This document shows positions 3,384 to 49,495 of a stretch of DNA of 51,164 bases, piece by piece; position 1 is the first letter of the stretch; each line of letters begins with the position of its first letter. The position numbers and the translations under genes were made by a program. The notes under the pieces were generated by a model. The model saw only the letters and a program-made list of their open reading frames with translations. It was not told the origin of the DNA and searched no databases. Source of the stretch: Lachnospiraceae bacterium (GTDB taxonomy: Bacteria > Bacillota > Clostridia > Lachnospirales > Lachnospiraceae); contig JAILQQ010000260.1 of NCBI GenBank assembly GCA_024698885.1, positions 1 through 51,164 on the forward strand. The letters run 5' to 3'.

Positions 3384-3479
3384 TAAGGAAATGATCCGGT
3401 CTGCCTGCAGACCGGATCGGCATGAACGAAGGTTCATGCCTAAGCGCACGATCTGCGAGCAGATCGGCGCAGTAAGGAA
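3384..3479 (+). repeat. Three-hairpin repeat, full copy (Rep2)
   Basis: This is a complete unit: edge GGAAAT, hairpin 1 (GATCCGGTCTGC/GCAGACCGGATC), hairpin 2 (GGCATGAAC/GTTCATGCC), the link TAAGCGCAC, and hairpin 3 (GATCTGC/GCAGATC) ending in GGCGCAG. TAAGGAA stands directly at both outer ends (3384-3390 and 3473-3479), and the right-hand TAAGGAA is the likely ribosome site of mutY. Confidence 0.92.
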
Positions 3480-3490
3480 TAATAAACATT

Positions 3491-4534
3491 ATGACAAGAA
3501 CAGAAATACTTCAAGAGATCATAGGGCCTCTGACAGGCTGGTACAGCATAAACGCAAGACCGCTGCCCTGGCGTGAGGCGCCATCGCCGTATCATGTCTG
3601 GCTTTCCGAGATCATGCTGCAGCAGACGAGGATCGAGGCGGTGATTCCCTATTATCACCGCTTTCTCTCTGCTTTTCCGGATATCGCTTCTCTAGCGGCG
3701 GCCGAAGAGGACAGTGTGTTAAAGCTCTGGCAGGGACTCGGCTATTACAGCCGCGCGAGAAATCTCCACCGGGCAGCAGGGCAGATCATGACAGAGCATG
3801 GCGGCGTATTTCCCGATTCCTATGAAAAAATAAAAAAGCTCGCCGGGATCGGCGAGTATACCGCAGGCGCCATTGCCTCCATTGCGTTCGGGATCCCGGT
3901 GCCGGCTGTCGACGGAAACGTTTTACGGGTCCTGAGCAGGCTGCTCTGCGATGAAAGGGATGTTCTGCTTCCGGAGACCAAAAAGGCGGTAACGGGGGAG
4001 CTTCTTGAGATCATGCCGAAAAAGGAGCCCGGTATCTTTAATGAAGCGCTCATGGAGCTTGGGGAAACCGTCTGCCTGCCAAACGGCATACCGCTTTGTC
4101 AGGAATGCCCGCTCAGAAACGATTGCCTCGCCTGTAAAGAAGGGCGGGAGAGCAGCCTGCCGGTGCGGACGGCAAAAAAAACGAGACGGATTGAGAAAAG
4201 GGTGGTATTCCTGATCCGAAACGGCGATCGTTTTGTTCTGCATAAACGGGAGAAAAAAGGACTTTTGGCGGGACTCTGGGAGCTGCCGGGAATAGAGGGA
4301 GAGGAGCCTGTTTTACCGAAAGAATGGGGTTTTTCCGTCATCTCGCTGACAAAGAGCATAGAAGCGCGTCATATCTTTACGCATCTCGAATGGCATATGC
4401 GGTTATATATTGCGGAAACAGCTGCGGATACCTTACCGGATCCGGAAAGCTGGGTTTTTACGGACAAGGCGTCGTTAACGGAAAGCTATGCGCTGCCTAG
4501 CGCCTTCCGGGCCTTTCTGCCCCTGTTACCCTGA
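3491..4534 (+). CDS. mutY: A/G-specific adenine glycosylase MutY
   Basis: MutY removes adenine mispaired with 8-oxoguanine in the GO base-excision repair pathway. The 347-residue protein has the HhH-GPD glycosylase domain with catalytic Glu40 (SEIMLQQT), the helix-hairpin-helix LAGIGEYTAGAI (117-128) and Asp141 in AVDGNVLRVLSR. The 4Fe-4S ligands are Cys195, Cys203, Cys206 and Cys212. The first spacing is seven residues, one more than the six in E. coli. Residues from about 228 form the NUDIX-like 8-oxoG recognition domain (GLLAGLWELPG). The start is set by the AAGGA site at 3475-3478, supplied by the edge of the preceding repeat. The gene converges with the DUF624 gene, with only 5 bp between stops. 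Confidence 0.96.
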   Translation: MTRTEILQEIIGPLTGWYSINARPLPWREAPSPYHVWLSEIMLQQTRIEAVIPYYHRFLSAFPDIASLAAAEEDSVLKLWQGLGYYSRARNLHRAAGQIMTEHGGVFPDSYEKIKKLAGIGEYTAGAIASIAFGIPVPAVDGNVLRVLSRLLCDERDVLLPETKKAVTGELLEIMPKKEPGIFNEALMELGETVCLPNGIPLCQECPLRNDCLACKEGRESSLPVRTAKKTRRIEKRVVFLIRNGDRFVLHKREKKGLLAGLWELPGIEGEEPVLPKEWGFSVISLTKSIEARHIFTHLEWHMRLYIAETAADTLPDPESWVFTDKASLTESYALPSAFRAFLPLLP

Positions 4535-4539
4535 ATGGT

Positions 4540-5331
4540 TCATACCGTTTCGGTCGGTTTTCCGGCCGGATCATTTCCTGCTTCCGCCGGTTTCCCCGTA
4601 AGCTCCTCCGGTGCTTTTTCCAAAACTCCTTCCGCCGGTTTTTCCGTAAGCTCTTCCGATGATCCTTCCAAAGACCCTTCCGATGACTCTTCCTCTTCCT
4701 TCGGGATATAATTGTCAAAGGCCTTTACGAACAAAAACGAGGCGCCGAAGGCTGCCAGCGAGAAAAGGATCAGGATATGCAGGATCAAAAGCCTCGGGAA
4801 CAGATAACCCGACAGAAACACGACAGCCCAGCAAATCACTGCCGTGACCGTTGTCAGCAAATGCCGGCAGCTCATTAAAAAGGAGTTGCGATAGGTATTT
4901 TTGATCGTATTGTCAAATTTCGCGAGGACCGGGAAAGAAAAGGTGACGGTAAATAAAAACAGGAGAGAGACGACCATGATCACAACCCGGACTACCGTAA
5001 AAACGGGAGTTCCCGGGTCGCTTATCCCGGGAACCTTCCCGTTCAGTACCGAAAAATCCAGGACCATAATGCCGAGGACCATCAGATCGAGGAGCCACAT
5101 GATAAGCCCCTGTCTGAAATTCTGCTTAAAGGAATGGAAATAACTCCTTACGATATAGGATTCCTCATTGCGGGTCATCTTCAGCGTAACATAGTAAAGC
5201 GCTGTTACAGCCGGTCCGATGGTGATGACCGGAAGACAGCAGACAATAAACAGCAGATTCAGGATCATCAGATCAGCGACCCGGTTCATGAATTGGACAA
5301 AGGGACTGTCCAGATTAAAAAATTTACCCAT
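4540..5331 (-). CDS. DUF624 (YesL-like) membrane protein
   Basis: This 263-residue protein belongs to the DUF624/YesL family of small membrane proteins often found near carbohydrate-uptake genes. About five hydrophobic segments are visible (residues 18-45, 78-98, 110-135, 155-180 and 182-205), with the family-typical N-terminus FFNLDSP and the CCLPVITIGPA segment. The last 55 residues are a low-complexity acidic tail built from EELT.KPAE repeats. The DNA near its end (around 4568) contains GGAAATGATCCGG, the same left edge as the three-hairpin repeat, so part of the tail may be repeat-derived. It overlaps the upstream GNAT gene by 8 bp. Function unknown. Confidence 0.85.
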   Translation of the reverse strand: MGKFFNLDSPFVQFMNRVADLMILNLLFIVCCLPVITIGPAVTALYYVTLKMTRNEESYIVRSYFHSFKQNFRQGLIMWLLDLMVLGIMVLDFSVLNGKVPGISDPGTPVFTVVRVVIMVVSLLFLFTVTFSFPVLAKFDNTIKNTYRNSFLMSCRHLLTTVTAVICWAVVFLSGYLFPRLLILHILILFSLAAFGASFLFVKAFDNYIPKEEEESSEGSLEGSSEELTEKPAEGVLEKAPEELTGKPAEAGNDPAGKPTETV

Positions 5332-6858: not shown

Positions 6859-6880
6859 ACTTATACTCTCCTTTCTCTTA

Positions 6881-6993
6881 GGAAATGATTCGGTCTGTTT
6901 ATCAGACCGAATCGGCATGAACAAGTTCATGCCTAAGCGCACGATTCGCTTTGCGAATCGGCGCAGTGCCGATCCGCTTGTGGAGTGTGCGCT
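6881..6993 (+). repeat. Three-hairpin repeat, full copy plus reversed half (Rep3)
   Basis: A full unit covers 6881-6966 (hairpin 1 GATTCGGTCTG/CAGACCGAATC, hairpin 2 GGCATGAAC/GTTCATGCC, hairpin 3 GATTCGC/GCGAATC). A degenerate hairpin-3 unit in the opposite orientation follows at 6966-6993. Its TAAAGCGCAC motif, read on the minus strand, coincides with the metG stop codon. Confidence 0.9.
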
Positions 6994-14156: not shown

Positions 14157-14176
14157 AACCGTTTACCTCCTGTCTC

Positions 14177-14210
14177 TGCGCCGATTCGCTTGCGGATCGT
14201 GCACTTAGGC
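14177..14210 (-). repeat. Three-hairpin repeat, hairpin 3 only (Rep5)
   Basis: Only the third hairpin and the linking motif remain: TGCGCCGATTCGC, GCGGATCGTGCACTTAGG. The stem now has one T-G pair, and the link has GTGCAC where other copies have GTGCGC. Confidence 0.8.
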
Positions 14211-14212
14211 TT

Positions 14213-15823
14213 TTATTTCAATGTGCTTTCATATTCGTCGATCAGATGATCGTATTTTCCGAGATTGATATCGATCACAGCCCGGATCCGTACCGGATCA
14301 AACAGCTCTCCCCGCGTGATCAGACGGATGACATCATAATACTCATGAAGCGCTTCGTTTTCGATGACATTTTCCCCGAAAGCGGCGGTATCCTCATAGC
14401 CCTCGGGCGGTTTCCGATACATATGCCCGATCCGCCAGTTTTCTTCTTTTTCCGCCGGCAGCTTTGACAGAAACGGATCACCGAGAGCGTACCAGTCGTT
14501 TAAATACATATCGGAATTATAATAGATCGAAATACCGGGAACCATCGGTAAAATACCGCCTTTTAGGCCGCAGGCGCGGTATTCCTCGATCCCCTGTTCA
14601 TTCCAGGCATCCCGGATACAGAGATCGCCGGTGCGGATCAGAGAGAGTATGTTATTGTAAAGGCTCGTATAACGAAAATAGCCGGCCCGCTCATCGGCGA
14701 TCGGGGAGCTGTTTTCATGGCCGTATAAAAACTGGCTCGTGATCAGTCCCATCGTGGCGGAAAAAACCATACAGCCGAGCAGAAGCCCTGCTACCGTAAA
14801 ACGGAACCGTCTGTTCTTATAATCCGCCTCGAAGCCGTTTTCATTGATATATAACACTGTTATCAATGAGATCAGGAATGCCGTGGTGAAATGTCGCCCC
14901 AGCATAAAATCTCCGCCGATATAGAAAAGATAGATCAAATAGAGCAAAAGCCCGAGAGCCGTGAAGATGAGCCTTCCCTTTTTCAGCAGAAAGGCCGTCA
15001 CGATCACAAAAGCAATGAATACGATCAGGACCGGATCGCAGAGGGCGGAGGTCAGCAGATACTGAAGGCCTCTGTAGAGGTATTCCCGAAGGGCGATATC
15101 CGTCCCGAGCTTGACATAGGCCGTATTCGGAAACGGAAAGCCGTAATAAAAAAGCGAAAACAGCTCCCACAGAAAAAAAGGCAGCAGGCTTAGGAAGCCG
15201 ATCAGAACCGCCCTGCCGAAGGAAACGAGCTTTCTTCTTCCTATATAAATATAGACTACGGCGGGTACGAACATTAACACCGCGTCCATTCTTGTCAGGG
15301 CGATCAGGGAAATGAGAAGCCCCATATAAAAAAGCTGCCTGCCGTCGAAATCCTCATACGCGTAATAGTTTTTAAAAAACAGGGCCGCCAGAAAAAAGAG
15401 CAGGCTGTTTTCAAGGCCGCTGGTGGTATAGCTCATAAAGGAAACCGAAGTGATCATCGCAAGAAACAGAAACAGCACCTGCCTGATATTATGACAGAAA
15501 TGCCTGCAGATGATCCCGTAGGCCGCCGCCGAAAAAGCGATGCAGATAAACAGCGAAATAAAAAACATGTTCCGCACGACAAAATATCCGCAGGCGATGA
15601 CCAGCGTAAACAACGGACAGGAGGAGGCGCTTGCCCGCTCCCCGATATTATAGACGAAACCGTTTCCCTCTACGAGATGCTTTGCCATGACATAGGCATG
15701 ATAGGCATCGTCGCTCTGCCAGGCCACCGCGGTGATGATCAGGATAAAGCAAAGGAGCGAGAAAAACCGGTAACGATTCAGGCGATCACTGAAGTAATCG
15801 GCGATTTTTATCTTTAGTTTCAT
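14213..15823 (-). CDS. GT-C fold membrane glycosyltransferase
   Basis: This 536-residue protein has about ten transmembrane segments followed by a soluble C-terminal domain of about 150 residues. The first extracytoplasmic loop carries an acidic pair (Asp38-Asp39) in SDDAYHAYVMAKHLVEG and then GFVYNIGER, the arrangement of GT-C enzymes that use polyprenyl-phosphate sugars, with resemblance to mycobacterial AftB-like arabinofuranosyltransferases. It should act outside the membrane on a surface glycan. The neighbouring GT2 could make its lipid-linked donor and the UGM-like enzyme a furanose precursor; this pathway is inference. A 39-bp mobile repeat now separates it from the GT2 gene. Confidence 0.78.
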   Translation of the reverse strand: MKLKIKIADYFSDRLNRYRFFSLLCFILIITAVAWQSDDAYHAYVMAKHLVEGNGFVYNIGERASASSCPLFTLVIACGYFVVRNMFFISLFICIAFSAAAYGIICRHFCHNIRQVLFLFLAMITSVSFMSYTTSGLENSLLFFLAALFFKNYYAYEDFDGRQLFYMGLLISLIALTRMDAVLMFVPAVVYIYIGRRKLVSFGRAVLIGFLSLLPFFLWELFSLFYYGFPFPNTAYVKLGTDIALREYLYRGLQYLLTSALCDPVLIVFIAFVIVTAFLLKKGRLIFTALGLLLYLIYLFYIGGDFMLGRHFTTAFLISLITVLYINENGFEADYKNRRFRFTVAGLLLGCMVFSATMGLITSQFLYGHENSSPIADERAGYFRYTSLYNNILSLIRTGDLCIRDAWNEQGIEEYRACGLKGGILPMVPGISIYYNSDMYLNDWYALGDPFLSKLPAEKEENWRIGHMYRKPPEGYEDTAAFGENVIENEALHEYYDVIRLITRGELFDPVRIRAVIDINLGKYDHLIDEYESTLK

Positions 15824-18030: not shown

Positions 18031-18077
18031 GACGTCGATTTTGTAGCTTTAGCTATGGGGTCGGCGTTTTTTTCATG
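18031..18077 (+). terminator. Terminator of the tRNA-Lys unit
   Basis: ACGTCGATTTTGTAGC pairs with GCTATGGGGTCGGCGT around a TTTA loop, with many G-U pairs, and a run of seven T follows. It ends the tRNA transcript. Confidence 0.85.
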
Positions 18078-18110
18078 CCGATCTGGTCAGCCGGCTGACC
18101 GGATCATTTC
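18074..18110 (-). repeat. Three-hairpin repeat, hairpin 1 copy (Rep6)
   Basis: Hairpin 1 with the ATTTCC edge: GATCTGGTCAGCC pairs with GGCTGACCGGATC. Relative to other copies the inner T-A pair is changed to A-T (GGTCAG/CTGACC), keeping the pairing. Confidence 0.85.
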
Positions 18111-18112
18111 CT

Positions 18113-18153: not shown

Positions 18154-18158
18154 TGCGC

Positions 18159-18293
18159 CTGCGCCGATTTGCCTGCAAATCGTGCGCTTAGGCATGAACC
18201 TGTTCATGCCGATTCGGTCAGCTTGCTGATCGAATCATTTCCTCGCCTGCGCCGATTTGCCTGCAAATCGTGCGCTTAGGCATGAACCTGTTC
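18159..18293 (-). repeat. Three-hairpin repeat, one full and one truncated tandem unit (Rep7)
   Basis: A full unit covers 18159-18242: hairpin 3 GATTTGC/GCAAATC, hairpin 2 GGCATGAAC/GTTCATGCC and hairpin 1 GATTCGGTCAGC/GCTGATCGAATC. A second unit starts at 18247 with the same hairpin 3 and stops within hairpin 2 at 18293, eight bases before the lipoprotein stop codon. Confidence 0.92.
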
Positions 18294-18300
18294 TAAACAC

Positions 18301-19623
18301 TTACATCATCAGCTCATTAACTCTTTCCTGTACGGCAACCGGATCATAACCGGCTTCTTCCAGAGCTTCCACACGATCCACACCGTCTCCCCAGAGACCT
18401 CTGACGACTTCGTGCGCGATCTCGTCTACGGATTTATCGCCTTCGGCCGTTGCTTCGGTTTCCTCAGCTTCTTCGGCTTCTTCAGTCTCTATTTCCGTTT
18501 CGATCTCTTCCGCTTCTTCGATCACTTCTTCGGCCGCTTCCGCCGCCGCTTCACCGGTCACCGGAACGGTTTCCTCACCGGTGCTCAGGTAGTCGATCAT
18601 GGCCGCAGGGATCGCCGGCGTCGCGTAATCTTCATCCAGACCGTTTGCGATCGCGAAACTGAAGTTATCCGCGAGGCACTCCTCCGCTGCGATAACATAT
18701 TTCGTGTTGCTTCCGACAACTTCATAGAAATTATCCACGTCCTCAAGCGGGATGATGTGATCCGGGCTGTCGATCGGCACCAGGGCGGGTACCACATGCT
18801 CCAGCATGACATCACCGGATTGGTATTCACCGTCAAAGACTGTCACGATCGTAGCTTCCACCGGCTCGCCCTTCACGATAAAGGTGCCGTGATTGTTATA
18901 GCTCTCCACATCGGGATTACTGCATATCTGCGCCCTGACCTCCTCCGTGAAAGCAGGCTCCTTTTCATCTACCGTAAAGCCGATCAGACGATACATGTTC
19001 TCCTTGAATTCCGGATGGTTTCTGGTCAGCACATGGAACAGCTCATGTGCCATTGTCTGATCACAATAATGCACCTTTTTCGGTTCTCCGCTTTTCAGAA
19101 GCTCGAAAAAGAAATCGCTCAGATAGATCTCATCACCGTGGGTATAAGCAGCGCTTCCGCTTTCATCTGCTGTTCCGGTCTTGATAAAGGAAATCGTTTC
19201 CGTAGCCGGGAACAAAAACCCAAGCTCGTTAAAACGATTGCTGACTTTGGCTACGCAGGCGTCGAGATATTCCACATCCTCAGGCGTCATATCCATTACC
19301 TGATCCCGTGCGAGAGCGATAAGCTCCTCCTTGGTCGCGCCTTTCTTTCCGACCCGGTAGTCCAGATTTATCTGTGACATCCCATCATAATACGCCGTGT
19401 TGGCAACCTTCATGTCTGCGCCTCTTTCGGCATCGATGATATCGTAGGTAACCCCGCCGATCCCGAACAGACCGGATGCCTCCAGCCCCTCCAGAACACC
19501 GCGGACCACTGCCCCCTGATAGGTTTCGGTAATCTGCTGCATATCGCCGTTTGGGCCGCAGCCGGCTACCAGGGCAGCGGACATGACTGCTGCCAGTACC
19601 GCTGCCAGTTGCTTACTTCTCAT
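18301..19623 (-). CDS. Lipoprotein with HEXXH zinc-protease-like domain and CW_7 tail
   Basis: The 440-residue protein has a lipoprotein signal (lipobox LVAG-Cys22), so it should be anchored on the outer face of the membrane. HELFH (193-197) is a gluzincin-type zinc motif; EECLADNFSF (314-323) is a good candidate for the third-ligand helix, with Glu314 or Glu315. Residues 351-397 are an Ala/Glu linker. The last 42 residues (398-439) match the CW_7 repeat of the Cpl-7 phage lysozyme (VDEIAHEVVRGLWGDG, then AGYDPVAVQERVNEL), which binds peptidoglycan. The combination suggests a membrane-tethered protease held against the wall. I do not recognise the family of the catalytic domain and name no substrate. 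It has a strong AAGGAGG site and a palindrome-covered promoter. Confidence 0.85.
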   Translation of the reverse strand: MRSKQLAAVLAAVMSAALVAGCGPNGDMQQITETYQGAVVRGVLEGLEASGLFGIGGVTYDIIDAERGADMKVANTAYYDGMSQINLDYRVGKKGATKEELIALARDQVMDMTPEDVEYLDACVAKVSNRFNELGFLFPATETISFIKTGTADESGSAAYTHGDEIYLSDFFFELLKSGEPKKVHYCDQTMAHELFHVLTRNHPEFKENMYRLIGFTVDEKEPAFTEEVRAQICSNPDVESYNNHGTFIVKGEPVEATIVTVFDGEYQSGDVMLEHVVPALVPIDSPDHIIPLEDVDNFYEVVGSNTKYVIAAEECLADNFSFAIANGLDEDYATPAIPAAMIDYLSTGEETVPVTGEAAAEAAEEVIEEAEEIETEIETEEAEEAEETEATAEGDKSVDEIAHEVVRGLWGDGVDRVEALEEAGYDPVAVQERVNELMM

Positions 19624-19723: not shown

Positions 19724-21652
19724 CTAAAACAGGAAAACCGCGGCGCCGTAAGCCGGCAGCGGATAAGCGATGGAATAAGGCTGTCCGTCCCATGACTTCG
19801 CTTCCGCCGTATACAACGATTTTTTCGGCGTAAGGCCCGATCCGCCAAACCGCTTTTCGTCACTGTTTAAGAGCAGCTTGTAGCGTTTTTTCTTCGGAAC
19901 GCCGACCCGGTAATCATCTCTGGCGATCGGGGTAAAGTTCATGACAAACAGAAGGCTGTTTTTCCTGTCAGCGCTCTGGCGGTAAAAGCTGTAGATGCTT
20001 TTATAGGTATCATCCGCGTTGATCCAGCTGAATCCTTCCTGCGCGTTGTCCAGCTCATACATGCAGGGGTATTTCCGGTATATACCCAACAGCTCTCTTA
20101 CGTATGACTGCATCCCCGCATGAAGGTCATCGGAGAGCAGTGCCCAATCCAGTTCGCGCTCCTCGCTCCATTCGGAATCCTGCGCAAATTCCTGTCCCAT
20201 GAATAGAAGCTTTTTCCCGGCATGTCCCATCATGAAGGTATACCCAACACGGAGATTAGCAAACTTATCGATATAGTAACCGGGCATTTTATTCAACATC
20301 GAGCATTTCAGATGCACGACCTCATCGTGGGACAATACCAGGATATATCGCTCCGCGTAATTATAGCTCATGGCAAAGGTCATCTTGTAATGATTGTCCC
20401 GTCTGAAGATCGGATCGAGCTTCATATAATCGCAGAAATCATGCATCCAGCCCATGTTCCATTTGAAGGTAAAGCCGAGGCCGTCATTTTCCGGAAGATC
20501 CGTTACCTTCGGCCAGGCCGTGGACTCTTCGGCGATCATCATGGCACCCGGGAAAACGCCCCTGATATAGGAGTTAAGATGCTTGAAGAATTCGATCGCC
20601 TCAAGATTTTTATTTTCGCCGTATTTATTCGGGATCCACTGTCCGTCCCGTTTGCCGTAATCCAGATACAGCATGGAGGCTACCGCGTCAACCCGCAGCC
20701 CGTCAATATGAAATTCCTTCAGCCAGAAGATCGCGTTGGCGATCAGGAAATTTTTGACCTCACTCTTGCCGTAATCGAATATCTTGGTACCCCAGTCCGG
20801 ATGCTCGCCCTTCCGGGGATCGGCATACTCAAAAAGCGCACTTCCGTCAAAGTCCGCCAGTCCATGCGCGTCCTTGGGGAAATGAGCCGGTACCCAGTCA
20901 AGGATCACGCCGATGTGGTTCTCGTGGAGCTTATTGACCATATACATAAAGTCTTCCGGCGTTCCGTAGCGGGAGGTCGGCGCGTAATATCCCGTAACCT
21001 GATAGCCCCAGGATCCGTCGAAGGGATGCTCGGCGATCCCGATCAGCTCGATATGCGTATAGTGCATATCCAACAGATAATCCGTGATGCGGTCCGCAAA
21101 TTCCCGGTAACTGTAGAAACCCTCGTCTTCCCGTCCGGGGTGGCGCATCCAGGATCCGATATGGCATTCATAGATCGCGATCGGCGCTTTTTCGATATCT
21201 GTTTCGCTTCGCTCCTTCATCCATGCGGCATCACTCCAGTTCAGACCGGAAATATCTGTGGTGACCGAGGCGGTTCCCGGACGCAGTTCGCAATAGTTGG
21301 CAAAGGGATCCGCTTTGTAATGCCGTTCGCCGTCCGCGCCGATGATCAGATATTTATAGAGAGCGCCCTGTGAAAGCTCCGGGATAAAACAATCGTAAAT
21401 CCCTAAAGGCTCCTGCCGTTTCATAGGGATATCCTGCTCGTTCCAGTTATTAAAGCTTCCTATTAAAAAGACCTCTCTGGCGTTCGGCGCCCAGACCGCA
21501 AAATAATATCCCTTCTTTCCGTCCTTCTCCGCCGGATGCGCACCGAGCTTTTTATAGATTTCGTAATGCGTCCCCTGCCCGAAATAATACATATCCATTT
21601 CGGTGATGAAAGGAGTATTCTCTTCCTTCTTTTTCTTCTTTGCCGCTGCCAT
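19724..21652 (-). CDS. glgB: 1,4-alpha-glucan branching enzyme GlgB
   Basis: GlgB forms alpha-1,6 branches in glycogen. The 642-residue protein has the N-terminal CBM48 (AVWAPNAREVFLIGSFNNW, 52-70), the GH13 barrel with nucleophile Asp322 (GLRVDAVASMLYLDY) and acid/base Glu375 (AEESTAW), and the C-terminal all-beta domain. The conserved GVILDWVPAHFPKD (248-261) and LSHDEVVH are also present. It begins with a Lys-rich stretch. The ATG shares TAATG with the stop of the upstream TPR/AAA-like gene, so the two are tightly coupled. No other glycogen genes (glgC, glgA, glgP) are in the window. Confidence 0.96.
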   Translation of the reverse strand: MAAAKKKKKEENTPFITEMDMYYFGQGTHYEIYKKLGAHPAEKDGKKGYYFAVWAPNAREVFLIGSFNNWNEQDIPMKRQEPLGIYDCFIPELSQGALYKYLIIGADGERHYKADPFANYCELRPGTASVTTDISGLNWSDAAWMKERSETDIEKAPIAIYECHIGSWMRHPGREDEGFYSYREFADRITDYLLDMHYTHIELIGIAEHPFDGSWGYQVTGYYAPTSRYGTPEDFMYMVNKLHENHIGVILDWVPAHFPKDAHGLADFDGSALFEYADPRKGEHPDWGTKIFDYGKSEVKNFLIANAIFWLKEFHIDGLRVDAVASMLYLDYGKRDGQWIPNKYGENKNLEAIEFFKHLNSYIRGVFPGAMMIAEESTAWPKVTDLPENDGLGFTFKWNMGWMHDFCDYMKLDPIFRRDNHYKMTFAMSYNYAERYILVLSHDEVVHLKCSMLNKMPGYYIDKFANLRVGYTFMMGHAGKKLLFMGQEFAQDSEWSEERELDWALLSDDLHAGMQSYVRELLGIYRKYPCMYELDNAQEGFSWINADDTYKSIYSFYRQSADRKNSLLFVMNFTPIARDDYRVGVPKKKRYKLLLNSDEKRFGGSGLTPKKSLYTAEAKSWDGQPYSIAYPLPAYGAAVFLF

Positions 21653-24576
21653 TACTTACCCCCGTTTGATTTTGATTTTTTCTGCTTTTTTTTGAGCTTC
21701 TGCTGTTTTTTTCCGTTCAACAGGAAATCCTTTTCCCGAATGATGATAAAATCATCGTCGTCGTAGCGCTTCGCGACCAAAACATCCATCAGATGCGAGA
21801 AGGTCATTTTGTCAACATGCGCGATGGCCGTATCGATCAGATCCTTGATATCCTCCACCGTTACCTGATGATCGAGGGTCTGCAGCTCACCGATCCTTGT
21901 ATACAAGGCCAATGTTCCCATTTCATCGATACTGTGCTCCTGCTCCTTGGCATAACCCTTCGCGTAGGCCACCAGATCGTCATTGGTGAAGGGGCTGATA
22001 TCGACCCTTGTGTCAAATACCGCACCAAACAGGCGGGGATCGCTTTCGAGAAGCGGAAGCAGCGATTCCCGGGAGCCCTCCAACACGATCAGAACAGATT
22101 CCACATCATTTAGCAGGCTCTGGGCGATAATGGTAAGCGCCGCTGCCGAAAGGCCGCCGGCTTCCTCGATGATCAGGGCGCCGTTATCAAGCTTTCTTAA
22201 CGTGGCCGGTATGTTCTTTTTATTCAGCGCTTCGCCCGAGATCTTGGCCACCTTTCCCTTAAAGGTCGAATCCATGGACTGCATGGCCTTTACGATATCG
22301 ATGGAAAGCGTTTTGCGGCAGGAAACTTCATCGCCCATCAGAACAACGTTTCCATGGCCGGCGTCCATACTCATATCATCGAGCACGTCAACCAGCTGTG
22401 CCTTTATATCCTCTATCCCGTCATAGCGTCCGAACAGCTTATATTCATTTTTCTCGAAATTACGTCTTGCCGTCCGCGATTCCTCAAGGACCATATAGCT
22501 CGGATGTTTCATCCGGCCGAATTCATCATAATTGGACGGTAAAGGCTCCGGCTCTTTCGGCTCCGGATTCATCGCCATTTCTACCAACGCGTTGTATTCC
22601 GCGATCTCTTCGATCGGAAGATTGCTGGTCTTGATGATATCGTCCACCTCGTCCGGCTGCTCGATATCCTCGATCTCCTCTACCTCTCCGTAATCATCTA
22701 ACTCATAGAAACGGGGCGGCTCATCCTCCTGTTCCTCTTCGTCTGTTTTCTCTTCGTCAGCTTCTTCTTCGGATACTGCTTCGTCAGTTTCTTCCGCTTC
22801 TTCTGCCGATTCCCCGGTTTCTTCTTTCTCTTCGGTTTCCTCTTCTGCTTCTTCCTGCTTTTCCCCGGTCTCTTCTTCGGCGTCTGTTTCTTCGCTAACG
22901 CCGGTCTCTTCCTGAACGGCGGTTTCTGCCTCTTTTGCTTCTTCCTGCGGCATTTCGGGCGTTTCTGTCCCGGAAGTCTCTTCCCCAGTAACTTCCGCGC
23001 CTGTTTCGGTCTTTTCTTCTTCCTCTTCTTCCATCAGGGAGACAGTCGTCTGGGACGCATGTACCTGCTGCAGCCTCGGCTTGCTTTCCTCGAGGGTCTT
23101 AACAGAGGAATTGCTCTCCGCCGCCTGCGGGATAACGGTGCTTAACTGCGCGAAGAAATCATCGGTATTGCCAAGCCTTCTCTGCCGCTCTTCGTAGTTC
23201 TTCAAAACCTCTTCGAGATTAAGCTGTCCCGTGATCTGCCGCTCAACCATATCGGTATCGGGAAGGCTGAAGTGAAACTGCCCGTCGTAATCCTGCCTGA
23301 GCATGTTATCATATCTGCGGGAGATCTCATTCATTTTATCCCGGGAAGCGCCGGCAGGCCTTGCCAGATTATTCTCCGTCAGTCTGCTTGCAGTCTCCGT
23401 ATCTTCCGCTTCTTTTTCGGCTGTCTGTGCAGCTGCTTCCTCTGCCTCGCTGCCGTCATTTTCGATATTATCCTCTGCCTCGTTTTCTGCCTCTTCTCCG
23501 GGAACATTAATCTCTGTTTTTTCGGGGATCCCCATGTCAGGACCTGCTTGCGGGATATGGTCGGCAGGTGCTTCGGCGGGTTTTATCACGGACCCGGAGG
23601 TGTTTTCCTGAACAACGCTCTGCAGGCTGTTGTAAAATTGTTGTACAAAACTGTTTTCGGGGTCCAGAACGAATTCCTGTGTTTTTGCTGGAGAAGCTCC
23701 TTCCATCTGTTGTACAACCATACCCGGATGTTCTGTATCATTTTCGGGTAACTGAGCTTCTTCAGAGCTGCCGCTTTGTAACTGTTCTTCCTGGAAAAGC
23801 GCCTGCTCACCGGTCTGAGAATCCTGTCCCAGATATTTCTCCATGCTCTGCTCCAGCTCGTTCTGCAGATTCTGGGTGCTGAAGCGGTCCGCATTTTCGG
23901 AGGAGCCGGTATTTTCGGAAGATTTTCCCGGCTGCTCTCCCATGGCAGGAGCCTGATCGGATCCGTAGTAACTGCCGTTATATTTTGTCTGCTGATCAGA
24001 GGTAAGGTTTGCGTGCTGCATTTTCAGCTCCATGGCCTTTTTCACGTATTTTCCTTCCCCAAACCAAAGGATCAGCTCATCGCAGGCATCGATACAGAGA
24101 GCCTCCTGTCCGGTCTTATGGTAGAGCAGAGCCAGCTCATAGGCCCATCTTTCCCGATAATCCCGTTTTTTGAACTCCTCTAATACCTTGATCCTCTCTT
24201 CGATCGAGACATCCTGCGCTTCATAGATTTTGTACAACAAAATATAGCTTCCGGTATCACCGGGAGCCACGCGAACAAACTCTTTATAGTATTCTATCGC
24301 CTGTACAACATCATTCATCTTTATGGCAAGCTCGCATAAAGCATAAACGATCATCCTGCCATTCGGATAACGGTCATACGCAAGAAGCAGGATATCCCTG
24401 CTCTCTTCATAACGCTTATTGATCTTATAGATCTCACTGACGGTGCAGAGCATGGAAACGCTCTTCACCCGCCGCCAGTTAATGGTATCGGCGATCTCCG
24501 CCGCTTCTGCGTACTTTCGTTCGGCTATCAGATTTTTGATCTGGTCAGCACAGACCTGATATTCATACTTATCCAC
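21652..24576 (-). CDS. Large TPR / acidic-linker / AAA-like protein
   Basis: This 974-residue protein has three parts. Residues 1-190 are TPR-like helical repeats. Residues about 190-640 are low complexity, with a very Glu-rich block (about 520-640). Residues about 690-930 look like an AAA+ domain of the CbxX/SpoVK kind: GDEVSCRKT (748-756) stands where the Walker A should be, and ALIIEEAG (800-807) is a good Walker B. The P-loop glycines are not kept, so ATP binding is doubtful. A Lys-rich tail ends the protein. The start is GTG with a GGGGAG site. Stop and glgB start overlap, which ties it to glycogen branching, but no function is known to me. Confidence 0.75.
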   Translation of the reverse strand: MDKYEYQVCADQIKNLIAERKYAEAAEIADTINWRRVKSVSMLCTVSEIYKINKRYEESRDILLLAYDRYPNGRMIVYALCELAIKMNDVVQAIEYYKEFVRVAPGDTGSYILLYKIYEAQDVSIEERIKVLEEFKKRDYRERWAYELALLYHKTGQEALCIDACDELILWFGEGKYVKKAMELKMQHANLTSDQQTKYNGSYYGSDQAPAMGEQPGKSSENTGSSENADRFSTQNLQNELEQSMEKYLGQDSQTGEQALFQEEQLQSGSSEEAQLPENDTEHPGMVVQQMEGASPAKTQEFVLDPENSFVQQFYNSLQSVVQENTSGSVIKPAEAPADHIPQAGPDMGIPEKTEINVPGEEAENEAEDNIENDGSEAEEAAAQTAEKEAEDTETASRLTENNLARPAGASRDKMNEISRRYDNMLRQDYDGQFHFSLPDTDMVERQITGQLNLEEVLKNYEERQRRLGNTDDFFAQLSTVIPQAAESNSSVKTLEESKPRLQQVHASQTTVSLMEEEEEEKTETGAEVTGEETSGTETPEMPQEEAKEAETAVQEETGVSEETDAEEETGEKQEEAEEETEEKEETGESAEEAEETDEAVSEEEADEEKTDEEEQEDEPPRFYELDDYGEVEEIEDIEQPDEVDDIIKTSNLPIEEIAEYNALVEMAMNPEPKEPEPLPSNYDEFGRMKHPSYMVLEESRTARRNFEKNEYKLFGRYDGIEDIKAQLVDVLDDMSMDAGHGNVVLMGDEVSCRKTLSIDIVKAMQSMDSTFKGKVAKISGEALNKKNIPATLRKLDNGALIIEEAGGLSAAALTIIAQSLLNDVESVLIVLEGSRESLLPLLESDPRLFGAVFDTRVDISPFTNDDLVAYAKGYAKEQEHSIDEMGTLALYTRIGELQTLDHQVTVEDIKDLIDTAIAHVDKMTFSHLMDVLVAKRYDDDDFIIIREKDFLLNGKKQQKLKKKQKKSKSNGGK

Positions 24577-24600: not shown

Positions 24601-24698
24601 ATTTCCTCACTGCGCCGATTTGCTCGCAAATCGTGCGCTTAGGCATGATCTTCAGATCATGCCGATCCGGTCTGTCTTTCAGACCGGATCATTTCCTC
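24601..24698 (-). repeat. Three-hairpin repeat, full copy (Rep8)
   Basis: All three hairpins are intact: hairpin 3 GATTTGC/GCAAATC, hairpin 2 GGCATGATC/GATCATGCC, hairpin 1 GATCCGGTCTG/CAGACCGGATC. Hairpin 2 shows a compensatory A-T to T-A change against the usual GAAC/GTTC. On the minus strand GAGGAAATG stands at both ends. The repeat sits upstream of the TPR/AAA-like gene start. From 24699 to 24761 the intergenic DNA is AT-rich with nothing I can name. Confidence 0.92.
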
Positions 24699-33320: not shown

Positions 33321-34508
<1,188 letters not shown>

Positions 34509-34519
34509 GCTGTCTCCTT

Positions 34520-34573
34520 TCTGCGCCGATCCGCCCTCGGATCGTGCGCTTAGGCATGAACTTCGGTTCATGT
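34520..34573 (-). repeat. Three-hairpin repeat, hairpins 2 and 3 (Rep9)
   Basis: Hairpin 3 (GATCCGCCCTCGGATC) and hairpin 2 (CATGAACTTCGGTTCATG, with a TTCG loop) remain; hairpin 1 is missing. The copy lies in the metK 5' leader, after the riboswitch terminator and before the ribosome site. Confidence 0.85.
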
Positions 34574-34582
34574 CATCATATA

Positions 34583-34616
34583 AAAAATCAGTCGGTTCGC
34601 AATAAGCGGACCGACC
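34583..34616 (-). terminator. Riboswitch-controlled terminator before metK
   Basis: On the minus strand GTCGGTCCGC pairs with GCGAACCGAC (one G-U pair) around TTATT, followed by TGATTTTTTAT. It stands just after the SAM-I aptamer, as an expression-platform terminator should. Confidence 0.88.
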
Positions 34617-34638
34617 CTGTATTTCAGCGCATCAAGTC

Positions 34639-34775
34639 CTCTTATTGTTCGAATACTTTCAATTCCGGACGGATCCGGAACCGCTCGCTCAGGTTGGCAC
34701 CTTCCTACCGGAAACCGGTCGCGGGGTTGCCGTGGCTTCATCGATCCTATGTATCTCCACCACTCTGAATAAGAG
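34639..34775 (-). promoter_or_regulatory. SAM-I (S-box) riboswitch
   Basis: On the minus strand the aptamer opens with CTCTTATTCAGAG, then GGTGGAG, GATGAAGCCACGGCAACC, GGAAGGTGCCAACCTGAGC and closes with AATAAGAG. These are the conserved S-box blocks in order. P1 pairs 34768-34775 with 34639-34646. SAM binding should favour the downstream terminator and lower metK expression. Confidence 0.95.
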
Positions 34776-38430: not shown

Positions 38431-38559
38431 CTTCATGCCTAAGCGCACGATTTGCAAGCAAATCGGCGCAAGAAGGAAATGATTCGGTCTGCGAGCAGAC
38501 CGAATCGGCATGAACTGAAGTTCATTCCTAAGCGCACGATTTGCAAGCAAATCGGCGCA
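38431..38559 (+). repeat. Three-hairpin repeat, one and a half tandem units (Rep10)
   Basis: A partial unit (38431-38470: TTCATGCC, TAAGCGCAC and hairpin 3) precedes a full unit (38475-38559). Both hairpin 3 copies are GATTTGCAAGCAAATC. The array fills almost all of the gap between the convergent SGNH-like and MBOAT genes and may act as their transcription end. Confidence 0.92.
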
Positions 38560-38562
38560 ATA

Positions 38563-40041
38563 TCAGAAGTTCGTGTAGATAAAGGTTGAAATGTCGGAAA
38601 GCGAGATAATGGACCAGACAAGCAGCAAAACGGTAGCTGCCAGGAGCTTTTTCGTCGGCTGAAATTGCCGGATCCGTTCCACGGGCGTTTTCATCAGGGT
38701 TGCGCAGAGTATGCCGATGATAAGCAGGACATAAAGCAGGACCAGTCCGACATAAACCGGCAGATCGGGGTCGCTTAAGGAAAGCAGCCATTCAAGGAGT
38801 CCGAATTCCGCCGGCGAGGCAGCGGCGACGTAGACCGCTTTATCGCTGATCGGCGTAAAATGAAAGGCAAAGAGTTTTTTGATCACATAAAAGGCCTGCT
38901 CGATCGTGGCAGAACGGAAAAAGACCCAGGTCAGATTGACATAGAAGAACATAAAGATGGCCCGGATCACTTTCGGAAGCTTTTGCGTATATTTTCCGAA
39001 GGCCTTGCTCAGGCATATCCCCACGCCATGCAGAAATCCCCAGAAAACAAAGGTATAATTCGCACCATGCCAGAGACCGCTTAACAGAAAAATGATCATG
39101 ATGTTTAAGTAGGTCCGCACCTTGCCCTTTCGGCTGCCGCCCAAGGGAAAATAGACATACTGTCTGAAAAAGCGGGTCAGCGTGATATGCCAGCGCTTCC
39201 AGAAATCATTGATGGACAGGGCCCGGTAGGGTGAGTCAAAATTGAGCGGCAGGGAGAGGTTTAACATCTGACAGATCCCCATCGCCATATCGCAGTAGCC
39301 GGAAAAATCAAAATAGATCTGCAGGGAATAGCCCACCACCATGAGAATGGCGATGGCGGAATCCGCCGAGGGCAGGTTATTGTAGCCCCAGTCCACGCAG
39401 GCAGCCAGACTGTCCGCCAGGATCGCTTTTTTTGCCAGGCCGAAGGAAAACAGCACCAGACCCTTTGCGATGTTTTCGAAATCTGCCTGCTTTTTCAGAT
39501 CGTCCGAAAAATCCGGGATCATTTCTTTGGCAAAAGCAATGGGACCAACCGATATTTTCGGGAAAAAAGCGGTAAACAGGGCATAATCGAGGAAACCGTA
39601 CCTGGTTTCGGGGTCGCGGTAGCTGTCAACTAAAAAGGCGATCTGTCCGAAGGTAAAAAAGCTGATGCCAAGCGGCAGGATAAGCGATTCAAACGTGAAG
39701 GTGGTTTGAAAAAGATGATTCAGCGTACGGAAGAAAAACCCGATGTATTTAAAATAGAACAGGCTGAGAAGATTCAGGGAGATGCCGAGAATTAACAGCG
39801 CTTTCCGGCCGGCCGGCTTTTTGACCCGGATAAAGCCAAAGACAGCGATCGCGTAGTTTACAAGGATGCTTGCGATCAGAACGATCACATTCCATGGCTC
39901 GCTGTAGCAGTAGAACCAGAGGGACATGGCAAGCAGAAAAACCTTCGCGGCCGTATATCTGCCGGCGCGGTTGATCAAAAAATAAATAACTATCGTTATT
40001 GGAAGAAACAGCAGTACGAAAATAAAGGAATTAAAAAGCAT
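38563..40041 (-). CDS. MBOAT family O-acyltransferase (AlgI-like)
   Basis: From ATG 40041 the protein has 492 residues and about ten to twelve membrane helices. MBOAT signatures are clear: YFDFSGYCDMAMG (243-255), NDFWKRWHITLTRFFRQYVY with His285, and LLSGLWHGANYTF with the catalytic His325. AlgI-like MBOATs pass acetyl groups across the membrane to polysaccharide or teichoic acid, with a DltD/AlgJ-like partner. The convergent SGNH-like gene is the probable partner. The open frame extends 33 codons upstream, but a promoter lies inside that part, so ATG 40041 is preferred. Confidence 0.92.
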   Translation of the reverse strand: MLFNSFIFVLLFLPITIVIYFLINRAGRYTAAKVFLLAMSLWFYCYSEPWNVIVLIASILVNYAIAVFGFIRVKKPAGRKALLILGISLNLLSLFYFKYIGFFFRTLNHLFQTTFTFESLILPLGISFFTFGQIAFLVDSYRDPETRYGFLDYALFTAFFPKISVGPIAFAKEMIPDFSDDLKKQADFENIAKGLVLFSFGLAKKAILADSLAACVDWGYNNLPSADSAIAILMVVGYSLQIYFDFSGYCDMAMGICQMLNLSLPLNFDSPYRALSINDFWKRWHITLTRFFRQYVYFPLGGSRKGKVRTYLNIMIIFLLSGLWHGANYTFVFWGFLHGVGICLSKAFGKYTQKLPKVIRAIFMFFYVNLTWVFFRSATIEQAFYVIKKLFAFHFTPISDKAVYVAAASPAEFGLLEWLLSLSDPDLPVYVGLVLLYVLLIIGILCATLMKTPVERIRQFQPTKKLLAATVLLLVWSIISLSDISTFIYTNF

Positions 40042-40356: not shown

Positions 40357-42591
40357 ATGAGCGATAATAATTCAAATCGGAACAATAACGGCGACGGGCC
40401 GAAGATGCCGAAGAACCGGCAGACGATCATGATCCTTTTAGTGGCGGCGCTGATCACGCTGCTGTTTTTGTCATATCTGAGAGGAGTCGTCAATACGGCT
40501 TCAAATCAGAAGATCTCCTATGACGAATTTATAGAGATGGTGATGAGCGGCGACGTGGAGAGCGTAAAGATCTCAAGCGATATCATTACGATCACGCCGA
40601 AGGTTCAGGCAAATCCCTATGTCACGCAGACTTATTATACGGTAAGGGTGGAGGATCTGACGCTGCCGAACCGGCTGTTAGAAGCAGGCGTGCATTTTGA
40701 GCAGGAGGAGACCAGCTCCTCGGATACGATCATCTACATGATCGTCTCTTATATCCTGCCCATCGTACTGGTATGGGTCCTGCTCAGCTTTTTGATGAAC
40801 CGCATGAGCAAGGGCGGCGGGATCATGGGCGTCGGAAAGTCAAACGCCAAGGTTTACGTACAGAAGGAAACCGGCGTGACCTTTAAGGATGTCGCGGGTC
40901 AGGAGGAAGCCAAGGAATCTCTGCAGGAGGTCGTGGATTTCCTGCATAATCCCGGCAAGTATATCGAGATCGGCGCGAAGCTCCCCAAGGGCGCGCTGCT
41001 GGTCGGCCCTCCCGGAACCGGAAAAACGCTGCTTGCCAAGGCGGTAGCCGGAGAAGCGCATGTGCCCTTCTTTTCCCTGGCGGGCTCCGATTTTGTGGAA
41101 ATGTATGTCGGCGTCGGCGCATCCCGGGTAAGGGATCTGTTTAAGGACGCGACGAAAAACGCTCCTTGTATCATTTTCATCGATGAAGTCGATGCTATCG
41201 GAAAAAGCAGGGACTCCCGCTACGGCGGCAATGATGAACGGGAACAGACGCTGAATCAGCTGCTTTCCGAAATGGACGGCTTTGATACCTCCAAGGGTAT
41301 TTTTATCCTCGCGGCGACGAACCGGCCGGAGATTCTTGACAAGGCACTGCTCAGGCCCGGCCGCTTTGACCGGCGTATCATCGTCGACAAGCCGGATCTC
41401 AAGGGCCGTATCGATACGTTAAAGGTGCACTCCCGGGACGTTCATCTCGACGATACCGTGGATCTTGAGGAGATCGGCCTGGCGACGGCGGGCGCGGTTG
41501 GGTCGGATCTGGCCAATATGGTAAACGAGGCGGCGATCAATGCCGTGAAGCACAGAAGATCGGCCGTTAATCAGAAGGATCTGCTGGAAGCCATCGAAGT
41601 GGTCATGATGGGCAAGGAGAAAAAGGATCATATCATGAGCAAGGAGGAGCGCCGGATCGTTTCCTACCACGAGACCGGACACGCGCTGGCAAGCGCCCTG
41701 CAGAAAAATACCGATCCGATCCAGAAGATCACGATCGTTCCCCGTACCATGGGCGCGCTTGGCTATGCCTGGTACGTGCCGGACGAGGAAAAGCATCTGC
41801 GGTCGCAGAAGGAGCTTGAGGAGCGTATTATTACGGCGCTTGCGGGACGCGCGGCGGAGGAGATCGTTTTCAATTCCGTGACCACAGGCGCTTCCAACGA
41901 TATCGAGCAGGCCACGAATCTGGCGCGGGCCATGGTGACGCAGTACGGTATGTCCGAAAAATTCGGTCTGATCCAGCTTGTTACCGTGGAGGATCAGTAT
42001 TTAAGCGGCAGACAGGTCTTAAACTGCTCGGACGAGACGGCAGCCAGGGTCGATGAAGAGGTCATGCGGATCATCGCGTATTCCTATGAGGAAGCCAAGC
42101 GCTTATTGAACGAAAACAGAGAGCTGATGGAGGAACTGGCGCAGTATCTGCTTGAGAAGGAAAGCATCACCGGCAAGGAATTCATGAAGATCTTCCGGGA
42201 ATACCGGGGCGAGGAGCCGGAGGACGAAGAAAATCTGGAAAATTCGGAAAATCCGGAGACGGAGAAAGCGCCGAAGCTTCCCGAAACGGAAGGAGCTGTC
42301 ACGGAAGCGGAGGTTTCAGAGCCGGAATCCGGTCAGGCGGTTTCTGCGGAAGCGGAATCTTTCATGGAAGCGGAGGTTTTGGAGACGGAACCCGGCCAGG
42401 CAGTCTTTTCGGAAACAGGAAATGATCAGGCAGATCCTGTGGAAACGGAAAATATGCCGAATTTTACGCTTGTTGAAACGCCGGAGAAGAGGGAAGAAGC
42501 TGAAACGCCGGAAAACCGGGAAGAAGCGACGGACCCTTCCGGGGAGAAACCGACCGGGCAGATCGACGCAGACGGGAAAGAGACTTCATGA
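40357..42591 (+). CDS. ftsH: ATP-dependent zinc metalloprotease FtsH
   Basis: FtsH degrades misfolded membrane and short-lived regulatory proteins. The 744-residue protein has two membrane helices (about 23-42 and 124-147) around an extracytoplasmic loop, an AAA+ domain with Walker A GPPGTGKT (217-224), Walker [12 protein letters not shown], the [23 protein letters not shown], and the zinc site HETGH (438-442). A C-terminal acidic tail of about 125 residues is unusual; it contains a 21-residue tandem unit starting [13 protein letters not shown] and [13 protein letters not shown], and a 9-residue pair [18 protein letters not shown]. It starts the eight-gene operon and overlaps uvrC by 4 bp. 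Confidence 0.97.
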
Positions 42592-48089: not shown

Positions 48090-48951
48090 GTTATCCTTTT
48101 CCCATAAAGTAAAAGAAGAACTGTATAAGCAGATCAGTCCGGCCAGGCACTGCCAGCTGGCGGAGCTGTCAGCGTTACTCACCTTTTCGGGAGGGCTTAA
48201 GCGCATGGCGGTTCCTGCCGAAAATGAAATGTTTGTCAGAAAATGCTTTACATTGCTTGAAAAAACCTTTAAGATAACAGGGTATGTTTCTGACGGACAG
48301 GGCGGCCGCCATGACCTGATCGGGATCCCGGATCCTTCCGGAAAGATCAGGGAATCCCTGCGAAGCAGTGTACTGCTTGAGCGGGCCTGCTGCAAAAGAG
48401 CGTATCTGAGAGGCGCCTTTATCGCGGCGGGATCGGTCAGCGATCCGCAGAAATCCTATCATTTCGAGATAGCAGCGGCGGAGAAAGCGGAAGCTTTCGT
48501 TCTGACAGAGCTGTTTGATACCTTTGAGATCCCGGCCAAGATCACGCTCCGCAAGCACAGCCATCTTGTCTATATCAAGGACGGCGAGAAGATCGCGGAC
48601 GCGCTGAACGTCATGGAAGCGCCTGTGGCGTTAATGGCCTTTGAAAATACGCGGATCTACAAAAACGTAGCCAATACGATCAACCGGCAGGTGAACTGCG
48701 AAACCGCGAATCTGAGCAAGACGATCTCCGCCGCGGTAAAGCAGCGGGAAGCCATCGAATACGCGGTGAAGCTGCCGGCCTATGAAGAGCTGCCGGAGCC
48801 CGTCAGGGAGGTGGCAAGACTCAGGCTGCAGTTTCCGGATGTATCCCTGAAGGAGTTGGGAGAAATGTGCGACCCGAAGGTGGGAAAATCGGGCGTCAAT
48901 CATAGATTACGGAGAATTATGGAGCTGGCGGAGACCGGCTCTCAGAATTAG
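48076..48951 (+). CDS. whiA: DNA-binding protein WhiA
   Basis: WhiA combines a LAGLIDADG homing-endonuclease-like domain, without catalytic activity, with a C-terminal helix-turn-helix; it affects sporulation in Streptomyces and cell division and chromosome segregation in Bacillus. From ATG 48076 the protein has 291 residues. The YLRGAFIAAGSVSDPQKSYHFE block (about 115-136) is the LAGLIDADG part, and SLKELGEMCDPKVGKSGVNHRLRR (about 257-280) is the HTH. The ATG overlaps the rapZ stop by 14 bp. The gene yvcK, which in Bacillus sits between rapZ and whiA, is missing. Confidence 0.95.
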   Translation: MSTDRLSFSHKVKEELYKQISPARHCQLAELSALLTFSGGLKRMAVPAENEMFVRKCFTLLEKTFKITGYVSDGQGGRHDLIGIPDPSGKIRESLRSSVLLERACCKRAYLRGAFIAAGSVSDPQKSYHFEIAAAEKAEAFVLTELFDTFEIPAKITLRKHSHLVYIKDGEKIADALNVMEAPVALMAFENTRIYKNVANTINRQVNCETANLSKTISAAVKQREAIEYAVKLPAYEELPEPVREVARLRLQFPDVSLKELGEMCDPKVGKSGVNHRLRRIMELAETGSQN

Positions 48952-48980
48952 CAGGCAGATCGAAGCGGACTGAGGATCGC

Positions 48981-49016
48981 GCCTAAGCGCACACTTTGCT
49001 TCGCAAAATGGCGCAG
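48981..49016 (+). repeat. Three-hairpin repeat, hairpin 3 only (Rep11)
   Basis: The link CCTAAGCGCAC and a diverged hairpin 3 (ACTTTGCTTCGCAAAAT, ending GGCGCAG) remain, between whiA and the Crh-like gene. A GGAGGAG ribosome site follows. Confidence 0.8.
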
Positions 49017-49031
49017 ATATGGAGGAGCATT

Positions 49032-49295
49032 ATGAAATTGCAGGATGTGGAAATCAAGCTGAAAAATGGTCTGGAGGCCAGACCGATCGCGCTGCTTGTT
49101 CAGGTCGCTACCCAGTATGACAGCAGGATCTATATCCAGTCCGGAGAGAAGCGCGTCAACGCAAAGAGCATCATGGGAATGATGACGCTTGTGTTAGCGG
49201 CCGGAGACAAGGTGACTGTTTCGGCGGAGGGCGAAGACGAGGAGGCAGCGGTAGCTGCGATCGCTGAATATTTAAGCGGAAATGATGCGGTCTGA
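49032..49295 (+). CDS. Crh-like HPr protein with Glu15
   Basis: The 87-residue protein has the HPr fold and length. At the phosphocarrier site the usual GLHARPA reads GLEARPIA, so His15 is Glu and transfer of phosphate from enzyme I is not possible. The regulatory serine is kept (NAKSIMG, Ser46), as is GEDEEAA. Bacillus Crh is similar, with Gln15, and lies at the same place after whiA. The protein is therefore a probable regulatory partner for CcpA and target of HprK, whose gene is in this operon. GGAGGAG sets the start. The last residues (SGNDAV) and the stop are encoded by the left edge of a palindromic repeat. Confidence 0.9.
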   Translation: MKLQDVEIKLKNGLEARPIALLVQVATQYDSRIYIQSGEKRVNAKSIMGMMTLVLAAGDKVTVSAEGEDEEAAVAAIAEYLSGNDAV

Positions 49296-49456
49296 AATGC
49301 AGACCGCATCGGCATGAACAGGTTCATGCCTAAGCGCACGATCCGCAGACCGGATCGGCGCGGTGCGGAAATGATGCGGTCTGAAGCGCAGATCGCTTCG
49401 GCGCGGTGCGGAAACGATGCGGTCTGAAGCGCAGACCGGATCGGCGCAGTTTGGAA
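49278..49456 (+). repeat. Three-hairpin repeat, one full and two reduced tandem units (Rep12)
   Basis: The full unit (about 49278-49362) has hairpin 1 GATGCGGTCTG/CAGACCGCATC, hairpin 2 and hairpin 3. Two reduced units follow (49367-49405 and 49410-49449), each a hairpin 1 half joined to the GGCGCG edge, and a last GGAAATG at 49452. Hairpin 1 has G-C at the pair that is T-A or C-G elsewhere. Confidence 0.9.
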
Positions 49457-49469
49457 ATGCTGCTGAGAG

Positions 49470-49495
49470 GCCGATGGAAGCATCGGCTTCTTTTT
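49470..49495 (+). terminator. Terminator after the ftsH-crh operon
   Basis: GCCGATG (49470-49476) and CATCGGC (49481-49487) form a 7-bp stem with a GAAG loop, followed by TTCTTTTT. It should end the long operon after the repeat array. Confidence 0.85.

Follow-up and report, generated by a model that had tools for sequence, protein, structure and literature searches.

A dispersed three-hairpin repeat with covarying stems, located mostly in sense just before Shine-Dalgarno sites in a few genomes of one Lachnospiraceae genus

Introduction

Interspersed hairpin repeats of bacterial genomes are an old puzzle, and the mobiliser proposed for them, where there is any, is RAYT (available text of PMC2817692 and PMC3733652). 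The locus in front of mutY in a Lachnospiraceae genome raises this puzzle in a new form: what is the ~87-nt element found there, what keeps its stems paired, and how could it have come to lie before so many genes? A sequence-only reading of the window, i.e. the whole 51,164-nt stretch analysed, had described a dispersed unit of three hairpins. The window is one whole contig of a draft genome of 3.71 Mb in 266 contigs (G000). Beyond that reading, the present analysis adds the sense position before Shine-Dalgarno sites, the narrow range and a GCGC/GCGC foot of hairpin 3. The position just 5' of Shine-Dalgarno sites is new here; a literature search, outside which most subscription papers lay, returned no paper that deals with the element or describes repeats inserting at such sites.

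Results

Structure of the element and its copies in the window

The copy that defines the element (3386-3475, plus strand) lies 5' of the Shine-Dalgarno motif and start of mutY (3491-4534, plus strand; NCBIfam). It opens with AGGAAAT, followed by hairpins of 11 and 9 pairs, TAA, hairpin 3 and AG, the third hairpin having 7 pairs and a foot extended by GCGC/GCGC. Folding predictions returned all three hairpins for RNA as well as for DNA, whichever strand was folded, with z of about -8.5 to -9.1 and none of 200 shuffles folding equally well, which bears out the hairpins previously read at this site. The two ends of the element are unlike, AGGAAATG on the left and GGCGCAG on the right (alignments A1 and A4).

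The window was scanned with a covariance model, R1, built from 34 copies. Six full copies were found, with scores of 93-108 bits: the one before mutY (107.8 bits) and those at 6880-6969 (plus, 100.3 bits), 18156-18243 (minus, 102.3 bits, clustered with partial units on both sides), 24607-24697 (minus, 102.4 bits, in sense upstream of a 974-aa frame at 21652-24576, minus), 38474-38563 (plus, 98.0 bits, behind a partial unit) and 49277-49366 (plus, 93.3 bits, first in a degenerate tandem array). Seven weaker, partial matches scored 20-46 bits. They comprise the hairpin 1 side of a copy truncated by the contig end (1-39, minus, 39.7 bits), a degenerate hairpin 1 also returned by the repeat search (4504-4579, minus, 20.5 bits), a degenerate copy at 14173-14258 (minus, 31.0 bits), a hairpin 1 side at 18050-18112 (minus, 27.5 bits), hairpin 3 with part of hairpin 2 in tandem with the full copy 18156-18243 (18244-18293, minus; R1 match 18244-18329, 44.6 bits, and repeat search), hairpins 2 and 3 in front of metK (34518-34572, minus; R1 match 34518-34627, 46.3 bits) and a degenerate hairpin 3 side at 48926-49019 (plus, 26.0 bits). 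R1 gave 23 matches in total, the remainder being antisense echoes or fragments of these 13. The repeat search added two fragments, a hairpin 3 side (38432-38470, plus) before the copy at 38474-38563 and a run of degenerate head-to-tail units of ~43 bases each (49344-49472, plus; family D3). The count of twelve whole or partial loci given by the sequence-only reading agrees with the model and the repeat search, within how clusters are counted. No Rfam family matched at the window copies, and none matched at E<=1 in three further loci (L110, L043 and L035).

Separately from the element, two 56-nt direct repeats, 63 nt apart and 80% alike, lie inside a long frame at 42296-42414.

Linkers and loops were compared in alignment A2, which holds the best 150 of 252 matches, all of at least 78.5 bits and near-complete. 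These 252 matches (E<=0.001, partial copies and antisense echoes included) come from the window and 95 further stretches fetched from G000, 489,511 bases altogether. The unpaired GGAAAT, TAA, AC and final AG vary very little, each base being kept in 132 to 149 of the 150 copies; the loops and the three bases after CAG are variable. Given these linkers and the kept fold, it looks as if the shape of the element, together with the linkers, were what is recognised. In the window copies, one sense frame, beginning ATGATC, is open throughout the element, so that long frames read through copies and tandem arrays and confuse simple gene calling.

Covariation of the stems

Among 34 copies of G000, changes on both sides of a pair were seen in 10 of 31 pairs, in 48 cells against 13.1±2.6 in shuffled alignments (0/500 shuffles). 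With 55 copies from five genomes, both-sided changes extended to 24 of the 31 pairs (241 cells against 64.4±8.1 shuffled; 0/500), and 97.1% of cells were paired, compared with 27-46% when the partner was slid by one column. Significance was thus taken from both shuffle and partner-slide controls. The covarying pairs in the 55 copies number 7, 8 and 9 in the three helices, so that the compensatory changes claimed for every stem are present in every stem. Covariation is thus strong over many copies, and a process that keeps stems paired, in place of simple copy drift, is supported by both alignments.

Each G000 copy carries on average 2.36 compensated and 0.73 mismatched pairs. Few mismatches against many compensated pairs are what is expected if pairing is checked whenever a copy yields another, and this balance points to the fold having a part in propagation; the copies may affect expression as well. 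The same changes might be purely mutational, template switching within hairpins copying one arm onto the other with no selection on folding. The ratio of about three compensated pairs to one mismatch would suit such a process, as would mismatches that are roughly strand-symmetric and show no G.U preference, but near-invariant linkers beside variable loops, the spread of the element and its position are left unexplained by it. We regard template switching as a very unlikely sole cause, although it could act jointly with movement of the repeat.

Copy number and taxonomic range

The element is not restricted to the window: it occurs genome-wide in G000, where near-complete copies number at least 150, and has relatives in two congeners, G019 and G024. 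R1 gave at least 160 matches in G000, a lower bound since 150 of 4,197 first-look candidates were scored, 84 in G019, a figure that takes in partial copies and some antisense echoes, and 8 in G024. Searching with an exact pattern misses many copies and double-counts a few places; this pattern, whose reversed control gave no match, was found 127 times in G000, 18 times in G019 and 6 times in G024, and in none of the other 34 of the 37 genomes of the genus. Across 397 genomes of the family, a second model, R2, matched in G000 only (11 candidates scored per genome); across 392 genomes drawn from the order, a draw without G019 and G024, the exact pattern likewise occurred in G000 only. Among the matches listed, genome RUI134 has one full copy and RUI154 two full copies and one weak one, and further carriers may exist beyond those listed. 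The copies in these two rumen genomes (L063 in RUI134, L084 and L085 in RUI154) are very like those of G000 and lie partly at contig ends; they are either a recent arrival or binning contamination.

Neither 50,697 phage records nor 72,556 plasmid records gave a blastn match to a 96-base query. Two further pattern matches were taken as chance, one of them the only match among viral contigs (L060), where the hairpins are absent by eye, the other in a Nitrosomonadaceae sequence (L068) that the covariance model does not confirm.

Some matches in G019 are longer and were considered as a parent element; this was rejected, as each is the element itself, only lengthened by a short additional hairpin within it. 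A second hairpin of ~35-40 nt, CTTATTCGA...TCGAATTGG, is present inside or beside several G019 copies in either orientation (L222-L226, L232, L239, L074 and L081). Its pattern matched 10 times in 159 kb of G019 loci, some of which overlap, and nowhere in the 490 kb of G000 and 41 kb of G024 that were covered. This hairpin has the look of a further small repeat that is nested in the main one.

Position relative to Shine-Dalgarno sites and genes

Of 118 copies of G000 with no tandem copy behind them, 81 are followed in sense, within 45 nt, by a Shine-Dalgarno-like motif and the start codon of an open frame, and the distances peak at 10-18 nt; the other 37 are not at a start by this test. On the antisense side of the copies the test was positive in 4 of 86 cases, and at random positions in 527 of 4,000, a lax control in which internal starts within coding DNA are counted. 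With a separate set of copies taken by regular expression, the adjacency was found for 66/99 copies in G000, 17/28 in G019 and 2/6 in G024.

A placement test was meant to separate attraction from lack of room. Of 123 copies, 44 with no sense neighbour on both sides and 8 with the upstream stop inside the element were set aside; 46 of the 71 left end 8-19 nt before a start, against 18.1±3.0 under uniform placement in each gap (maximum 29 in 2,000 runs), and 13 of the 71 begin within 11 nt of the upstream stop. In gaps between co-directional genes the element is in sense 76 times and antisense 7 times, as counted with a crude frame caller by which 12 of 150 copies fall inside frames reading through the element. 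Among fifteen copies with no plausible downstream start, an RGGR motif stands within the first 8 nt in only 4 (background 0.09), which lends weak support to a choice of target independent of genes.

Ten G000 genes behind copies were scanned; nine matched below 1e-10 and one gave no match. The nine are mutY, metK, murD, a TRAP solute-binding subunit gene, proA, a gene for an MntR/DtxR-like regulator (below cut-off), ligA, mreB and an anti-sigma-factor antagonist gene. Judged by these matches, the downstream genes are unrelated to one another. None of 19 downstream genes of G019 and G024 was orthologous to any of 66 from G000, a single 29% paralogue being found.

These positions bear on whether the element is a cis-acting RNA whose sense transcript folds before the Shine-Dalgarno motif and is kept for its effect on translation or mRNA stability of the downstream gene. 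The sense orientation and the tight distance to start codons would fit such a function, and the partial copy at 34518-34572 stands between a SAM riboswitch (34639-34775, minus, 63.6 bits) and the ribosome-binding site of metK (33321-34508, minus; profile match), where the leader is very probably transcribed. A leader RNA would, however, be expected before the same genes in related species, and the sites of this element are not common to G000, G019 and G024; moreover, its downstream genes are unrelated and 34 of 37 congeners do without it.

The mismatches allow a further test. A sense RNA selected at its site should tolerate G.U better than A.C and be better paired beside start codons, and neither holds. 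In the sense strand of the 150 G000 copies, A.C mismatches outnumber G.U (G.T in the DNA) by 53 to 32 (p 0.03), and by 46 to 29 in 142 of the 150 copies when the loop-closing pair is left out (p 0.06); in copies of the relatives the figures are 30 and 18 (p 0.11; 46 of 62 distinct rows kept, 6 of the 46 being antisense echoes). Copies beside start codons have 0.75 mismatches each and those elsewhere 0.73 (n=83 and 59, p 0.95). Taken together, the missing G.U bias and the equal pairing speak against selection for a sense RNA at each host gene, and we consider a cis-acting RNA unlikely as the explanation of the element. The excess of A.C hints at folding of the antisense strand; related copies are not independent, however, and while hairpin 2 of one G019 subfamily carries a C.A pair that is fixed, other copies have G.T pairs in common, so no strand is assigned.

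Sites, junctions and search for a mobiliser

Two orthologous loci, L071 in G024 and L077 in G019, are without the element, its absence being confirmed by the model. At a third locus, L070 in G019, the element is likewise missing, but the gap there is about as long as with it, so that this is not a clean empty site. Of the 150 aligned copies, 27 have the start of another copy directly behind them. Target-site duplications were searched at 71 single copies: over the 288 registers scanned, identity was at best 0.44, compared with 0.38 for shuffles (z 3.5), and the best exact 3-mer 5 against 1.2, none of them convincing, and no true empty-site junction was in the comparison. As neither a mobilising gene of the classes searched nor a polymorphic insertion was found in the draft genomes of the carriers, movement is something that we infer.

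The sequence-only reading had seen no REP-associated tyrosine transposase in the window, and this holds also for the G000 assembly and for the other main carriers: Y1_Tnp (PF01797) had no match in G000, G019 or G024, drafts that are 98%, 85% and 94% complete, respectively. It was present in 28 of the 61 genomes searched, among them 18 of the 34 other congeners. With three carriers this amounts to no significant anticorrelation, but carrying the element does not require a detectable Y1 gene.

These data can be set against the possibility that the element is a REP-type repeat moved by a RAYT or IS200-IS605 Y1 transposase that is missing from the drafts or has been lost. REPs, too, are hairpins in high copy number that show complementary changes, and a RAYT gene is located between its REPs (both from the accessible part of PMC2817692), so that breaks of an assembly at repeats could cost it the contig with the RAYT; since the genomes are drafts and several copies are at contig ends, a mobiliser gene embedded among copies could be missing, and Y1 genes do occur in those 18 congeners. 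Against this, the Y1 domain is absent from all three main carriers, and the ends bear no GTAG or CGTC tag as defined in the available text of PMC3733652. We hold a RAYT-type mobiliser to be quite improbable.

Other candidates were tried and rejected. A single IS91-like Y2 transposase gene, found in G000 only among 15 genomes searched (L242, G000:C209:1936-2496), has no similar ends around it (best model score 5.9 bits, E 0.59) and is absent from G019 and G024; it stands behind a tyrosine-recombinase-like frame. A search for a multi-copy transposase near copies compared 512 frames, drawn from the window together with the fetched stretches and covering about 13% of the genome with about 87% outside it, and gave only frames reading through the element and three paralogue pairs.

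Discussion

In our judgement the element is probably a non-autonomous, structure-dependent mobile repeat, one that works like REPs or MITEs and settles next to Shine-Dalgarno motifs. What the moving machinery recognises would be the folded form, a row of three hairpins with near-invariant single-stranded linkers, and the enzyme would act in trans. Folding would be needed for movement, and only copies with intact stems would give new copies, so that pairing would be kept while the letters drift. Most new copies would come to lie in sense immediately 5' of AGGA/GGAG motifs that resemble a Shine-Dalgarno sequence, so that the ribosome-binding site stays intact; target choice, together with survival of harmless insertions, would account for the position. 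Because the left end, AGGAAATG, itself resembles such a motif, a new copy could land before an old one and build head-to-tail arrays. After insertion, copies would ride in the leaders and operon gaps of unrelated genes and then decay.

Single-strand transposons of the IS200/IS605 type have hairpins that are read as folded single strands, make no target duplication and keep a short motif beside one end. By analogy, the present element resembles them and their non-autonomous derivatives in its hairpins, in the lack of a target duplication and in the motif next to one end, but neither a Y1 transposase nor a parent element sharing its ends was found. Nor does it appear to derive from an IS91-type (Y2) element, as its ends are not around the Y2 gene of G000.

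The comparison with known repeats drew on the accessible parts of PMC2817692, PMC2267715, PMC3049150, PMC10969869 and PMC3733652. With REPs and BIMEs and their RAYTs (GTAG and CGTC super-families) the element shares high-copy extragenic hairpin repeats, complementary changes, tandem arrangement and a patchy, species-specific occurrence (PMC3733652, PMC2817692, as far as available); it is indeed a high-copy extragenic palindrome with complementary changes, one of the features that define REPs. For the CGTC REPs, no dedicated transposase is known either, according to the part of PMC3733652 consulted. It differs in being ~87 nt long with three hairpins and fixed linkers, whereas a REP is a palindrome of 20-40 bp, and in ending without the GTAG or CGTC tag by which the same text defines REPs. 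Its arrays run head to tail and do not alternate as in BIMEs; it lies before Shine-Dalgarno sites, whereas REPs are mostly downstream of genes (PMC3733652, same limits); and the draft carriers G000, G019 and G024 have no cognate Y1 gene (RAYT) flanked by repeats.

The MITE-like BOX, RUP and SPRITE repeats of pneumococcus are also short, structured and intergenic and have spread in one species and its close kin, and they are thought to be parasitic and likely to affect co-transcribed genes (PMC3049150, in the text available). MITEs are described there by terminal inverted repeats and target duplications. The element has no terminal inverted repeats but three separate internal hairpins between unlike ends, no target-site duplication was found at its copies, and, in contrast to BOX, RUP and SPRITE, it shows a strong bias in where it lies and how it is oriented with respect to start codons. 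It thus works like REP and MITE repeats, yet lacks the tag, the RAYT, the terminal inverted repeats and the target duplication that were looked for.

A bolder form of the mobile-repeat explanation is that the element represents a class of structured mobile element aimed at the Shine-Dalgarno sequence itself, moving as folded single-stranded DNA or as an RNA copy inserted at mRNA ribosome-binding sites, with an enzyme outside both the RAYTs and the recognised HUH transposases. We put this forward tentatively, as doubtful but possible. If true, integration aimed at the Shine-Dalgarno sequence would be a built-in safe-harbour strategy that spares the ribosome-binding site of each target gene.

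In contrast to REPs, this element stands in front of genes, in sense and at the ribosome-binding site, with three hairpins kept by compensatory change, and it occurs in few species of one genus whose main carriers have no RAYT. Two questions thereby become testable: which other enzyme is able to move folded repeats, and whether integration can be directed to Shine-Dalgarno sites.
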